Origin: an uncultured Clostridia bacterium | GTDB lineage: Bacteria; Bacillota; Clostridia; Christensenellales; Pumilibacteraceae | Assembly: GCA_944372345.1 (NCBI GenBank) | Contig: CALVYT010000018.1 | Location: 1-64,000 of the forward strand | DNA: 64,000 bases | Reading direction: 5' to 3' | Part shown: positions 2,603-7,260 of the stretch, piece after piece | Numbering within the stretch: position 1 is the first letter of the stretch | How the letters are laid out: each line of letters begins with the position of its first letter | Notes under the pieces: model-generated | The model's input: only the letters and a program-made list of their open reading frames with translations | Told to the model about the DNA's origin: nothing | The model's database searches: none | Position numbers and translations under genes: made by a program

Positions 2603-4324
2603 ATGAAAGAATTGATGCTTACCAACCGTGCGGTGGCGCGCGGGGCATACGAGGCGGGCGTGAAGGTGCTGTCCGCATATCCCGGAACACCCAGCACGGA
2701 AATAGCGGAGAATTTCGTCAAGTTCGACGGAGTGTACGCCGAGTGGGCGCCCAACGAAAAGGTAGCGCTCGAAGTCGCGGTAGGCGCGTCCGTCGCGGGC
2801 GCGAGGGCCATGGCGTGCATGAAGCACGTCGGACTTAACGTCGCCGCCGACCCGCTTTTCACGGCGGCATACACGGGCGTGAACGGCGGACTCGTCATAG
2901 TGGTCGCCGACGATCCCGGTATGCACTCCTCTCAGAACGAACAGGATTCGCGTTACTATGCGCGCAGTGCGCACATCATGATGCTCGAACCGTCGGACGC
3001 GCAGGAGGCTAAGGACTTCACCAAGCTCGCGTTCGAGCTCAGCGAGAAGTACGACACCCCCGTTCTCATAAGGCTTACGACGCGCGTCGCGCATTCTCGC
3101 AGTCTTGTGGAGCTGGGCGAGCGCGAGGAACTGCCTCTCCGTCCTTACGAAAAGTCGGTGACCAAATACACCATGATGCCCGCGAGCGCGATACTCCGTC
3201 ATCAGGTGGTGGAAGAGCGCGACGTAGAGCTTGCCAACGCCGTGAACACCATGTCTGTAAACAGGGTGGAGCGTAGCAGAAGAGGAAGCAAGATAGGCGT
3301 CGTGTGCTCGGGCGTGGTATATCAATACGTAAAGGAAGCGCTTCCCGACGCGAGCATATTCAAAGTGGGAACGATATATCCGCTTCCCATAAAGGCGATA
3401 GAGAAGTTCGCGTCCACCGTTCAGCAGCTTTACGTCATAGAAGAGCTTGAACCGTTTATAGAGGACAGGCTGAAAGCCGCGGGCATAAAGTGCCGCGGAA
3501 AGGAGATATTCTCCCTTCAAGGCGAGCTGTCCGTACTTAAAATTCTCGAAAAATTCAACCGTTCGGTGCCCGTACCCGTGCCCGAAAAGGTGCCCGGACG
3601 TCCTCCCGTGATGTGCGCGGGCTGCCCTCACCGCGGCGTGTTCTACGTGCTTTCCAAGCTGAAACTGACGGTGAACGGCGATATAGGTTGCTACACTCTC
3701 GGCGCGGTCGCGCCGCTCAGCGCGGTGGACACGGTGCTCTGTATGGGCGCGTCCGTGGGAATGGCGCACGGATTCAAAAAGGCGACGGGCGGCGAGAGCC
3801 ACAATATAGCGGTCATAGGAGATTCGACGTTCCTTCACAGCGGAATAACGGGACTGATAAACGCGGTGTACAACGAAAGCGGTATAACGCTCGTCATTCT
3901 CGACAATTCCACGACCGGTATGACGGGTCATCAGGATCACCCCGCGACGGGAAAGAACCTCAAAGGCGAAAAAGCGCCCGCGGTCCTTCTCGACGACATA
4001 TGCCGCGCCTGCGGAGTAAAGGACATAGCGATAGTGGACGCCTACGACATCAAGGCGGTGGAAGAGGCTGTCAAAAACGCGCTTGCGTCCAAGGAAGTGA
4101 GCGTGATAATAGCGCAGAGACCCTGCGTGCTTCTCGATAAGCGCGTACGGCCCACGGTAATGGTAGTGGACGGATGCCGTAACTGCGGCAAGTGCATGAA
4201 GATAGGCTGCCCCGCCATATCCCGTACGGAGAGCGGTGTGCGTATCGATCCCGTGCAGTGTACGGGTTGCGGAGTGTGTGCGGAGGTATGCCCGTTCGGA
4301 GCGATAAAGGAGAGCGAGAGATGA
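2603..4324 (+). CDS. iorA: Indolepyruvate:ferredoxin oxidoreductase, alpha subunit
   Basis: The 573-residue protein has the IorA domain order: an N-terminal pyrimidine-binding domain (SAYPGTPSTEIAEN, residues 23-36), a middle domain, and a thiamine-diphosphate domain with GDIGCYTLG (about 359) and GDSTFLHSG (about 407). At the C terminus are two 4Fe-4S motifs, CRNCGKCMKIGC (about 524-536) and CTGCGVCAEVC (about 552-563). With IorB it decarboxylates indolepyruvate, phenylpyruvate or hydroxyphenylpyruvate to the aryl-acetyl-CoA while reducing ferredoxin. It overlaps iorB by 4 nt (ATGA), typical for translational coupling. The start at 2603 follows an AAGGAA site. Confidence 0.95.
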   Translation: MKELMLTNRAVARGAYEAGVKVLSAYPGTPSTEIAENFVKFDGVYAEWAPNEKVALEVAVGASVAGARAMACMKHVGLNVAADPLFTAAYTGVNGGLVIVVADDPGMHSSQNEQDSRYYARSAHIMMLEPSDAQEAKDFTKLAFELSEKYDTPVLIRLTTRVAHSRSLVELGEREELPLRPYEKSVTKYTMMPASAILRHQVVEERDVELANAVNTMSVNRVERSRRGSKIGVVCSGVVYQYVKEALPDASIFKVGTIYPLPIKAIEKFASTVQQLYVIEELEPFIEDRLKAAGIKCRGKEIFSLQGELSVLKILEKFNRSVPVPVPEKVPGRPPVMCAGCPHRGVFYVLSKLKLTVNGDIGCYTLGAVAPLSAVDTVLCMGASVGMAHGFKKATGGESHNIAVIGDSTFLHSGITGLINAVYNESGITLVILDNSTTGMTGHQDHPATGKNLKGEKAPAVLLDDICRACGVKDIAIVDAYDIKAVEEAVKNALASKEVSVIIAQRPCVLLDKRVRPTVMVVDGCRNCGKCMKIGCPAISRTESGVRIDPVQCTGCGVCAEVCPFGAIKESER

Positions 4325-4890
4325 ATATACTTATCGCAGGCGTAGGCGGGCAGGGAACGCTGCTCGCAAGCAAAGTCCTCGGCAGATACGCCGTTCTCTG
4401 CGGCAAAGACTGCAAACTCAGCGAAGTACACGGAATGAGCCAGCGCGGCGGCAGTGTCACGACGCACGTCCGCATAGGCGACAGAGTGCATTCTCCCGTA
4501 ATCTGGCCGGGAGCGGCGGACGTCATACTCGCGTTCGAGGTGCTCGAAGCGGCGCGCGTCAGGCATTTCCTGCGCCCGGGCGGAATACTGCTCGTAAACG
4601 ACGTCAAGATCCTTCCCATGCCCGTTATAACGGGTGCGGCAAAGTACCCCGAAGGTCTTAAAGAGAAAATGCTCGAAGACATAAACGGCGCGTACTTCAT
4701 ACCTGCGGCGGCAATAGCCGAAGAGGCGGGAAGCTCGCGCGCGGCGAACGTGGTCATGCTCGGCGCGATGTGTCGTCTGTTTGGCTTCGACAAGGAAAAA
4801 ATGGTGGAGGCGGTAACCGACTGCGCTCCCGAAAAATTCAGGGAACTGAACCTTAAAGCATTCGCTTTGGGTTACGAAAGAGTAAAATAA
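4321..4890 (+). CDS. iorB: Indolepyruvate:ferredoxin oxidoreductase, beta subunit
   Basis: The 189-residue protein begins MNILIAGVGGQGTLLASKVL, the gamma-domain signature of 2-oxoacid:ferredoxin oxidoreductases, followed by the HGMSQRGGSV motif near residue 40. It is the small partner of IorA in the aryl-pyruvate oxidoreductase. The ATG at 4321 overlaps the iorA stop codon, which fixes the start; an open frame upstream of it is only the out-of-frame end of iorA. Confidence 0.95.
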   Translation: MNILIAGVGGQGTLLASKVLGRYAVLCGKDCKLSEVHGMSQRGGSVTTHVRIGDRVHSPVIWPGAADVILAFEVLEAARVRHFLRPGGILLVNDVKILPMPVITGAAKYPEGLKEKMLEDINGAYFIPAAAIAEEAGSSRAANVVMLGAMCRLFGFDKEKMVEAVTDCAPEKFRELNLKAFALGYERVK

Positions 4891-4914
4891 ACAACGGACG
4901 AAAGGGAGAAGAGG

Positions 4915-6222
4915 ATGAAATATTTTCAGCCTGAGCTTGAAACGATGAGCGCGGCGGACAGGCGCGCTCTGCAATCGGAAAGGCTCGTAAGTACGGTCAA
5001 ATACGTTTACGAGCGTCAGAAGCCTTACCGCGAGAAGATGGACGCTATAAAGTTGCGCCCGTCGGACATAAAGGGCATAGAAGACATATGGAAACTGCCT
5101 TACACGCAGAAGTCAGACCTGCGTAACAGCTATCCGTTCGGAATGATGGCGGCGACGAGGAAGGAGCTTGTCAGACTGCACGCGTCCAGCGCGACGACGG
5201 GAAAACTCACCGTTTCGGGTTACACCAAACACGACATAGACGTGTGGGCGGACTGTGCGGCGCGTTCGCTCGTCATGGCGGGCGCGGACGAAGAGAGCAT
5301 AGTGCACGTCTGCTACGGATACGGACTGTTCACGGGCGGACTGGGTATGCACTACGGAGCGGAAAAACTCGGCGCGATAGCCGTGCCTGCGTCCGCGGGC
5401 AACACGCAGAGGCAGTTGCAACTGCTTGCCGATTTCGGCGCGGATATAATATGTTGTACGCCCTCCTATGCGATATACCTGATAGAGGAAATGGAGAAGG
5501 CGGGTCTTAAACCGGGGCGCGACATAAAACTCAAAGGCGGATGCTTCGGCGCGGAAGCGTGGACGGAAGAGATGCGCGCGGAGATAGAACGTCGGCTCGG
5601 CATACGCGCCTGCGACATTTACGGGCTCAGCGAGATATCCGGACCGGGCGTTTCGGGCGACTGCGAGTACAAGACGGGAATGCACTTCCAGGACGATCAC
5701 TATTTCCCCGAAATAGTGGATACCGAAACGCTCGAACCCCTTCCGATGGGCGAGCGCGGAGAGCTCGTAATAACCACGCTCGACAGAACGGGAATGCCGC
5801 TCATCCGCTACCGCACGAGGGACATAGCCGCTCTCGACGACACGCCCTGCCCGTGCGGAAGAACGACGATAAGAATGAAGCGCATAACGGGGCGAAGCGA
5901 CGATATGCTCATCATACGCGGCGTGAACGTGTTCCCGTCTCAGATAGAGAGCATACTCCTCAAAGATCCGTACGTGCAGCCGCACTACCACATAAACGTG
6001 GACAGGGTGAACAATCTCGACACTCTCGAAATAGTCGTCGAACTGTCGCCCGACGCGATGTCGGACACCATGTCGGAGATAGAGGCGATACGCTCCCGAC
6101 TTTCCGCGGAAATGGCGTCGGGAATAAGCGTAACGGCAAAGATAACGCTCGTTTCTCCGGGAACGATAGAGCGTAGCGAGGGAAAGAGCAAGCGCATCAC
6201 CGACAGGCGCAAGATAAAATAA
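4915..6222 (+). CDS. paaK: Phenylacetate-CoA ligase family protein (copy 2, altered P-loop)
   Basis: The 435-residue protein is a paralogue of the gene at 1286, alike over its full length, with YGLSE near residue 237 and GRSDDMLIIRGVNVFPSQIE near residue 330. The phosphate-binding loop near residue 92 reads SSATTGKLTV, where the family and copy 1 have SSGT.GKPTV: the conserved Gly and Pro are replaced. This may change nucleotide handling or simply be tolerated. It starts 24 nt after iorB with a good AAAGGGAG site and is probably in the same operon. Confidence 0.85.
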   Translation: MKYFQPELETMSAADRRALQSERLVSTVKYVYERQKPYREKMDAIKLRPSDIKGIEDIWKLPYTQKSDLRNSYPFGMMAATRKELVRLHASSATTGKLTVSGYTKHDIDVWADCAARSLVMAGADEESIVHVCYGYGLFTGGLGMHYGAEKLGAIAVPASAGNTQRQLQLLADFGADIICCTPSYAIYLIEEMEKAGLKPGRDIKLKGGCFGAEAWTEEMRAEIERRLGIRACDIYGLSEISGPGVSGDCEYKTGMHFQDDHYFPEIVDTETLEPLPMGERGELVITTLDRTGMPLIRYRTRDIAALDDTPCPCGRTTIRMKRITGRSDDMLIIRGVNVFPSQIESILLKDPYVQPHYHINVDRVNNLDTLEIVVELSPDAMSDTMSEIEAIRSRLSAEMASGISVTAKITLVSPGTIERSEGKSKRITDRRKIK

Positions 6223-6240
6223 CGCAAGGGAGGGAAAACG

Positions 6241-6642
6241 ATGATAAACCAGATAGCCGTATTTTTGGAGAACAGAAAGGGCAGGATAGGCGACTGCTGT
6301 GAGGTGCTCAAACACGCGGGCGTGAATCTTTGCTCGATGTCCATAGCGGACACGACGGACTTCGGCATTCTCCGCATGATGACGGACGACAACGACAAGG
6401 CGCTTTTCTATCTCAAAGCGGCGGGATTCATGTGCGCGGCAGTGCCGCTCGTCGCAATGCAGGTACCCGATAAGCCGGGCGCGCTCGCGGACATACTCAT
6501 CGCTCTCGACAAGGCGGGAGTGAATATCGACTATCTCTACTCCTTTGCGGGAGCGGGGGAAAACGCCCACATAGGCTTTAAGACGAACGAGCCGCAGAAA
6601 GCGGAGAAAGTGCTTACCGAAGCGGGTGTAAAGATAATCTGA
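6241..6642 (+). CDS. Tandem ACT-domain protein
   Basis: The 133-residue protein is made of two ACT modules: residues 1-65 (MINQIAVFLENRKGRIGDCC...) and about 68-133 (VAMQVPDKPGALADILIALD...). Stand-alone ACT-ACT proteins are commonly found beside iorAB and paaK in anaerobes and are thought to sense amino acids; a specific ligand is not established. It is the last gene of the arylpyruvate operon, 18 nt after the second ligase, with an AAGGGAGGG ribosome site. Confidence 0.85.
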   Translation: MINQIAVFLENRKGRIGDCCEVLKHAGVNLCSMSIADTTDFGILRMMTDDNDKALFYLKAAGFMCAAVPLVAMQVPDKPGALADILIALDKAGVNIDYLYSFAGAGENAHIGFKTNEPQKAEKVLTEAGVKII

Positions 6643-6679: not shown

Positions 6680-6766
6680 GCCGCCGTGGTGGAATTGGCA
6701 GACGCGCCGGACTCAAAATCCGGTGGTAGCGATACCGTGTCGGTTCGACCCCGACCGGCGGCACCA
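6680..6766 (+). tRNA. tRNA-Leu (anticodon CAA)
   Basis: An 87-nt class II tRNA. The acceptor stem is GCCGCCG (6680-6686) with CGGCGGC (6756-6762). The anticodon stem CCGGA/TCCGG encloses loop CTCAAAA, with anticodon CAA at 6714-6716 (codon UUG). There is a long variable arm (GGTA/TACC), T arm GTCGG-TTCGACC-CCGAC, discriminator A and an encoded CCA at 6764-6766. Confidence 0.97.
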
Positions 6767-6814
6767 AAAGAACGAGCGACCTTTGACGGGTCGCTCGTTC
6801 TTTTGCTGCCGCCG
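6756..6814 (+). terminator. Long hairpin that includes the tRNA 3' acceptor strand
   Basis: Left arm 6756-6781 and right arm 6789-6814 are complementary at 25 of 26 positions, with a 7-nt loop. The inner part (6766-6804) is a normal terminator with a T4 run. The outer part pairs the last 11 nt of the tRNA, including CCA, with a downstream copy, in competition with the acceptor stem. Confidence 0.8.
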
Positions 6815-6881
6815 CGAGGGGTGCGGAAGATTTGCGTTATGCGGGTAAGCAATAAAGAGAAAGCGGCAAACGCAAATCATT

Positions 6882-6966
6882 CGCTCAGCCGAGGGCGCGG
6901 AGAGCGCGCCCGAACGCCAACGCGGTTTTGCGAACGCAAGCGAGCAAAACGCGTTACCCCGACCGG
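6882..6966 (+). repeat. Two-hairpin repeat module, copy A
   Basis: Conserved frame CTCAGCCGAG, then hairpin GGGCGCG-gagag-CGCGCCC (6893-6911), linker CCGAACGCC, then a second hairpin bounded by AACGC (6919-6923) and GCGTT (6951-6955), ending ACCCCGACCGG. Stem and spacer sequences inside the second hairpin differ from copy B, although the ends are the same. Confidence 0.7.
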
Positions 6967-7071
6967 ACATCGGTTCTCGTCGAGCAAACGCCCCCTTGCG
7001 GGGCGTTCACCTTTTTGCGCCCCCGCTCGGGGATGCGAGCCGAGTTTCGCGTTTACGCGAAACCTCGGGCG

Positions 7072-7164
7072 CTCAGCCGAGAGCGCGTAAAACGCGCCCG
7101 AACGCCAACGCTTTCGCGCCGCGCCTGACGCGGCGCGATGGCGTTACCCCGACCGGCGGCACCA
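7072..7164 (+). repeat. Two-hairpin repeat module, copy B, fused to a tRNA 3' end
   Basis: Same frame as copy A: CTCAGCCGAG, hairpin GCGCG-taaaa-CGCGC (7083-7097), CCGAACGCC, then AACGC (7107-7111) ... GCGTT (7141-7145) enclosing a 9-bp stem CGCGCCGCG/CGCGGCGCG. It runs into ACCCCGACCGGCGGCACCA, which is identical to the last part of the upstream tRNA-Leu. Confidence 0.7.
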
Positions 7165-7214
7165 AACGACAGAGGCAGGACTTTTCGTCCTGCCTCTGTC
7201 GTTTGGTGCCGCCG
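7154..7214 (+). repeat. Perfect 28-bp inverted repeat containing the tRNA 3' end
   Basis: Left arm 7154-7181 and right arm 7187-7214 are perfectly complementary with loop TTTTC. The outer 11 bases are CGGCGGCACCA of tRNA-Leu and the inner bases are unrelated to the first hairpin. No tRNA body precedes it. Confidence 0.85.
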
Positions 7215-7260
7215 AGAGCGCGCAAAGCGCGCCCGAACGCCAACGCAGTTTTGCGAGCGG
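7211..7260 (+). repeat. Two-hairpin repeat module, copy C (truncated)
   Basis: GCCGAG, hairpin GCGCG-caaag-CGCGC (7218-7232), then CCGAACGCCAACGC and GTTTTGCGAGCGG, as in copy A. The closing GCGTT arm is missing. From here to 7354 only GC-rich sequence with a partial AACGCCCCTTGCGG motif is seen. Confidence 0.6.

Follow-up and report, generated by a model that had tools for sequence, protein, structure and literature searches.

The stretch of DNA analysed here (64,000 nucleotides from an uncultured Clostridia bacterium, contig CALVYT010000018.1; hereafter the window) contains an intact tRNA-Leu(CAA) gene, followed by a terminator-like hairpin and a tandem array of short palindromic repeats in which pieces of the tRNA 3' end recur (Table 1). 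Upstream of the tRNA (2603-6642) lie indolepyruvate-oxidoreductase-like, phenylacetate-CoA-ligase-like and ACT-domain-like genes, all named from their translations alone. At G000:C37:57405-57552 (L004) there is another tRNA-Leu(CAA), near-identical to the first and likewise preceded by an ACT-domain-like gene; this gene, again named from its translation alone, is duplicated here at the end of the contig, and C37 stops at the same point. The inverted repeat that forms the terminator-like hairpin reaches into the tRNA gene (6748-6822), with 88% complementarity over 34 nt between its 3' arm and the end of the tRNA (3' side).

Table 1. Features of the tRNA-Leu(CAA) locus and its repeat array in the window
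Feature	Position	Strand	Basis
Intact tRNA-Leu(CAA), from which the 3'-end fragments among the repeats derive	6680-6766	+	ARAGORN; Rfam RF00005, 52.2 bits
Terminator-like hairpin directly 3' of the tRNA, separating the array from tRNA transcription	6767-6802	+	Inverted repeat I1
Element copy 1 (CTCAG...GCGTT)	6884-6955	+	Covariance model R1, 28.9 bits, E 6.8e-6 in the window
Copy 1, hairpin 1 (GGGCGCG-GAGAG-CGCGCCC)	6893-6911	+	Sequence; covariation across the family
Copy 1, hairpin 2, tRNA-Leu variant (AACGC...GCGTT)	6919-6955	+	Sequence; differing stems at this tRNA in relatives
tRNA-Leu 3' fragment ACCCCGACCGG, host DNA right of the insertion	6956-6966	+	Direct repeat D6/D3
Element copy 2 (CTCAG...GCGTT)	7072-7145	+	R1, 20.7 bits, E 8e-4 in the window
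tRNA-Leu 3'-end fragment, T-loop to CCA	7146-7164	+	D3, 90% versus the tRNA over 29 nt
Perfect 28-bp palindrome starting in the tRNA 3' end	7154-7214	+	I2, 100% complementary
Truncated element copy 3, lacking CTCAG and the 3' arm of hairpin 2	7212-7254	+	Pattern match; sequence

The window has three occurrences of the motif CCGAG-N-CGAACGCC (6889, 7077 and 7212), where 0.2 are expected and none of 100 shuffled sequences reached three. An earlier note on this DNA had read the three copies as modules sharing five blocks in a fixed order. CCGAG, GCGCG-N5-CGCGC and CCGAACGCC do stand in that order in all three. The AACGC...GCGTT stem, however, is whole only in copies 1 and 2, whose inner stems are unlike and each self-complementary, as copy 3 is broken off behind AACGCAGTTTTGC at about 7254 and lacks both GCGTT and ACCCCGACCGG. 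The supposed fifth block, ACCCCGACCGG (CGGCACCA), belongs to the host site and lies outside the module, being the T-loop-to-CCA 3' end of tRNA-Leu(CAA). Behind copy 2 this 3' end extends to CCA and then into the perfect palindrome, which includes the tRNA-Leu 3' end and its complement; nearly the same hairpin is found in genome G010, directly behind its intact tRNA-Leu.

Structure and covariation of the element

Across the family the element comprises two tandem hairpins in the arrangement YTCAG-CCGA-(hairpin 1)-GAACGCC-ACGA-(hairpin 2)-GAGT. Its length ranges from about 40 to 85 bp and is usually 42-61 bp, or 72-77 bp at tRNA-Leu. An alignment of 39 elements reads YTNAG CCGAG, hairpin 1, CGAACGCCAC(G/A)AG, hairpin 2, (A/G/C)AGT, in which the constancy of CCGAG and CGAACGCCA arises by construction since both were part of the search pattern, the flanks and hairpins being left free. 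In three loci (L224, L158 and L064) the hairpin-1 stems hold inner G-A internal loops (CGAG...CGAAG), as if hairpins grew by nesting.

The covariation-like behaviour claimed in the earlier note is weak within the three window copies, where hairpin 1 is nearly constant, and very strong family-wide. In 62 distinct sequences of sufficient length, picked without regard to pairing, 88.7% of the outer four variable positions of hairpin 1 are paired, as against 43.3% when the 3' arms are swapped, with a maximum of 52.8% in 2000 swaps. Among the aligned elements, changes on both sides of the hairpin-1 stem fall in 49 cells compared with 13.3 +/- 3.1 after shuffling, a slightly favourable count because the alignment omits some imperfect hairpins. 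For hairpin 2 the swap test gave 2.74, only slightly above the control (mean 2.43, maximum 2.64), the excess being small because this hairpin is less variable and its ends are cut by the pattern.

The triloops of hairpin 1 are of the GNA type in 31 of 41 cases, and 29 of the 41 read C-GNA-G. C-G-closed GNA loops, e.g., that of GCGAAGC, form exceptionally stable DNA mini-hairpins, and GNA triloops are favoured by DNA more than by RNA. Extraordinarily stable mini-hairpins of DNA have been described in the literature (PMC10527192). Nearest-neighbour DNA folding revealed no strand preference, the top strand being more stable in 27 of 58 elements; as the folding energies are equal between the strands, they were left out of the strand evidence, and the loop type is the remaining support for a single-strand step.

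Insertion sites

When the two flanks of a copy are joined, 26 copies give back a continuous tRNA that matches over 8+8 nt without mismatch, and no target duplication is seen. These exact insertions lie in D-, anticodon- and T-arms, in the genes for Thr-CGT (both orientations), Arg-CCT, Arg-CCG, Glu, Gly and Leu. In tRNA-Thr(CGT) the anticodon arm is entered at GCTG^ATT in either orientation; T-loop sites are TTCG^ATT in Arg-CCT, Arg-CCG and Glu and TCCG^ATT in Gly, and D-arm insertions occur in Arg-CCT and Leu. Sites that rejoin with one or two mismatches add the anticodon loops of Ile (CTG^ATA) and fMet (CTC^ATA), the D-loop of Ser and the T-loop of Leu (TTCG^ACC). AT stands on the right flank of all 26 exact insertions, a statement based on the joined flanks rather than on the right-side logo, which is biased because the pattern demanded A[TC]. 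The left side conforms to a two-base consensus only, Y-S. The disrupted tRNA copies often form small tandem arrays with an intact copy, the Thr-CGT array having a period of 152 bp.

Other landing sites were found as well. In Pumilibacter and in genome G014 several copies sit at TGTC^ATTGCGAG, i.e., within another palindromic repeat. The interspersed palindromes that serve as landing sites in these genomes (L105-L115) have the form TGTCATTGCGAG...GCAATC and are CGTC-REP-like. At L064 one copy is nested within another at GAACGCC^ACGAG, the host copy being itself in a tRNA T-loop. One hairpin-1 type (CAATGCGCAGCATTG) recurs at three tRNA loci of the window's genome (Arg-CCT, Arg-CCG and Lys), a single type occupies six loci in Pumilibacter, and 52 of 56 types are confined to one genome. 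Such sharing within genomes, together with types private to a genome, is what recent spread and fast turnover of the stems would give. Judged from these sequence comparisons, mobility of the element is well supported.

At the tRNA-Leu(CAA) locus, each of the seven genomes examined carries, downstream of the tRNA, an element with a copy of the tRNA 3' end behind it, and in most of these both hairpins have different, self-complementary stems. The element at this locus may stem from an old insertion or from repeated insertion, or may be kept for some use, and its persistence across the family could reflect a retained function.

Distribution

In the window's genome the pattern CCGAG-N(8-24)-CGAACGCCA is matched 14 times, and its reversed control not once. 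Most of them adjoin tRNA genes or fragments (Thr-GGT, Arg-ACG, Thr-CGT, Arg-CCT, Arg-CCG, Ile/Ala, Lys and Leu), and the rest resemble chance matches in coding sequence. All 10 covariance-model matches in this genome (E<=0.001, the model E-values being rough) lie at most 121 bp from an intact tRNA, one of the 37 tRNAs found. Among relatives, 35 of 61 genomes have pattern matches, many of them with hairpins and some being chance matches in coding sequence. The element is present in the window's genome, in the genus Ca. Protoclostridium and in the family (Pumilibacter), with weaker matches within the order. In a scan of 84,980 species, one genome each, the matches fell mainly in uncultured Clostridia, Ca. 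Protoclostridium and Pumilibacter. Of the 19 matches in other taxa none has a stem of at least 4 bp, whereas 63 of the 80 in the remaining loci do, which provides an internal negative control for the scan. The 107 pattern matches in IMG/VR included, among the loci examined, one hairpin-like spacer, which looked coding, and no real viral copy. With a 12-letter pattern for the 3' half, most of the positions matched in seven genomes were whole elements identified before, and among the matches inspected there was no autonomous version with half-elements on either side of a gene. All loci come from draft genomes, in which contigs often end inside arrays.

Comparison with known families

The earlier note knew of no named family that matches, and this holds for Rfam and for the open-access literature searched. 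Only tRNA reached the Rfam gathering score in six sampled loci and the window region, and no account of the element was found in the open-access literature under TCATTGCGAG, tRNA-inserted palindromes or the host names. By eye, the RYYYAAC/GTTRRRY boxes of integron attC sites do not fit.

The closest kinds of element are the CGTC-REPs and the mitochondrial double-hairpin elements. Like the element, CGTC-REPs (Di Nocera 2013, PMC3733652; including RPE-4, RPE-6 and dRS3) are short palindromes with heterogeneous stems, some of which sit inside other palindromes, and since they too have no dedicated transposase they are its closest named company; the word Clostridi- is absent from that paper. Their stems begin with AT, and in Pumilibacter the element inserts exactly between a TGTC tag and this AT. 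The element differs in being two tandem hairpins with the ends CTCAG...GAGT that are aimed at tRNA loops, and its sequence, YTCAGCCGAG...GAGT, has no CGTC/TGTC/CCTC tag with an AT stem and a CCA-like tail. Mitochondrial double-hairpin elements and yeast GC clusters (Paquin 2000, cited in PMC4478555; PMC2800124) are likewise interspersed hairpins without a known mover whose sequence changes fast while the structure is kept. The double hairpin is a feature of the present element as well, hairpin 1 being established by covariation and the less variable hairpin 2 being read from the sequences. In contrast to the mitochondrial elements, however, it is bacterial-chromosomal and targets tRNA loops precisely, and while yeast GC clusters have a putative AG duplication (PMC4478555), it has no target duplication.

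The repeats of RAYT/REP systems and class 3 TnpA (PMC6006769) share with the element a 4-nt foot at the hairpin and a proposed single-strand recognition. The resemblance of CCGA, which stands 5' of hairpin 1 (CCGAG was in the search pattern), to the CnGA of class 3 TnpA repeats is a lead only; no class 3 TnpA gene was found associated with the element, the window's genome shows no Y1 and the Y1 genes examined are not flanked by the element. The foot is also not the GTAG/GTGG of GTAG-REPs, and with no Y1 found in the window's genome there is no resident RAYT. PATEs, non-autonomous IS200/IS605 derivatives, resemble the element in their subterminal hairpins and in the lack of terminal inverted repeats and target duplication, both of which are absent from the 26 exact insertions. 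The element is much shorter, though, shares no ends with full-length Y1-carrying insertion sequences at the examined Y1 loci of relatives, and has no fixed target tetranucleotide, its left flanks being TTCG, GCTG, GCTC, TGTC and TGCC. Since it fails the tag tests for GTAG- and CGTC-REPs, the shared-ends test for PATEs and the resident-transposase test for RAYTs, we file it under none of these; no family definition that we tested is matched in full.

Discussion

The repeats likely represent a tiny mobile DNA element, non-autonomous and built of two hairpins, whose copies insert bluntly at YS^ATW, mostly into loop-encoding parts of tRNA genes in uncultured gut Clostridia. The earlier note had offered a mobile palindromic element as one of two readings, and the many copies, the precise insertions into tRNA genes, the nested insertion, the occurrence in both orientations and the strong covariation all speak for it. 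Its other reading, a structured RNA (regulatory or processed) whose stems are kept by selection for RNA folding, is improbable. The covariation, and the recurrence of the element with the tRNA-Leu 3' end in seven genomes, would suit such an RNA, but it accords poorly with both orientations at tRNA-Thr, the nested copy, the non-tRNA intergenic repeats occupied in Pumilibacter, the restriction of Rfam gathering-threshold matches to tRNA in the six sampled loci, the position of the window array behind a terminator-like hairpin, and a triloop type that DNA favours. The anticodon and T arms are classical integrase sites, and as tRNA 3' ends are also duplicated downstream of the tRNA, the repeats might be taken for attachment-site scars left by integrative elements whose tyrosine recombinases act at tRNA genes. 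We regard this as unlikely, because the two junctions share no overlap, the units of about 120-190 bp leave no cargo genes between copies, and insertions also occur in non-tRNA palindromes and in another copy. If 3' regions of tRNA genes had merely been duplicated in tandem on the spot, with hairpins arising by chance and no mobile element, a tandem window array containing tRNA 3' ends would be accounted for; this is very unlikely and is contradicted by the exact insertions, as the same module sits with precise junctions in many unrelated tRNA genes and other repeats.

The loop type, the hairpin design and the absent target duplication suggest a single-strand step, and the element is probably REP/PATE-like and moves as single-stranded DNA. 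That it is moved specifically by an IS200/IS605 or RAYT (HUH-Y1) transposase, since lost or supplied by a relative, is possible but doubtful. Hairpins at both ends, DNA-type loops, the lack of target duplication, the CnGA-like foot (PMC6006769) and the presence of Y1 genes or fragments in 15 of 37 genomes favour it. However, no Y1 transposase was found in the window's genome, a 95% complete draft, or in the element-rich genomes G003, G009, G012, G014 and G017, the Y1 loci inspected in relatives lack element ends and have hairpins of another kind (mostly CCACC...GGTGG), and the left target is no fixed tetranucleotide. IS110 transposases (PF02371) and reverse transcriptases (PF00078) were also considered as movers and rejected, neither being found in the window's genome draft. 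Possible movers include a tyrosine recombinase, a Y1 enzyme that has been lost and an enzyme not yet described, and it may be, though we hold this only tentatively, that a system other than HUH-Y1, IS110 or reverse transcriptase moves minimal double-hairpin DNA and targets hairpin loops.

For the two-hairpin mobile element we propose the following mechanism. A folded single DNA strand, its loops mostly of the C-GNA-G mini-hairpin type, would be recognised by a trans-acting enzyme and inserted bluntly, without target duplication, between Y-S and A-T, mostly in the loop parts of tRNA genes and, in Pumilibacter, also at TGTC^ATTGCGAG in other palindromic repeats. Insertion into tRNA genes would stay tolerable because the disrupted copies adjoin an intact one, and the stems would turn over rapidly because their pairing matters and their sequence does not.

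Short palindromic repeats without a known mover are an old puzzle in both bacteria and mitochondria. The present element offers clean insertions in the best-annotated of targets, tRNA genes, many copies per genome and culturable hosts (Pumilibacter), so that the question of what moves double-hairpin repeats, and of whether folded DNA serves as both substrate and target, becomes directly testable in this family. It also shows that an element with no gene of its own can enter tRNA genes at several arms and leave no target duplication. If a loop-targeting system does exist, tRNA genes would be its natural landing sites, and the stems of the element would be free to change as long as they remain paired.
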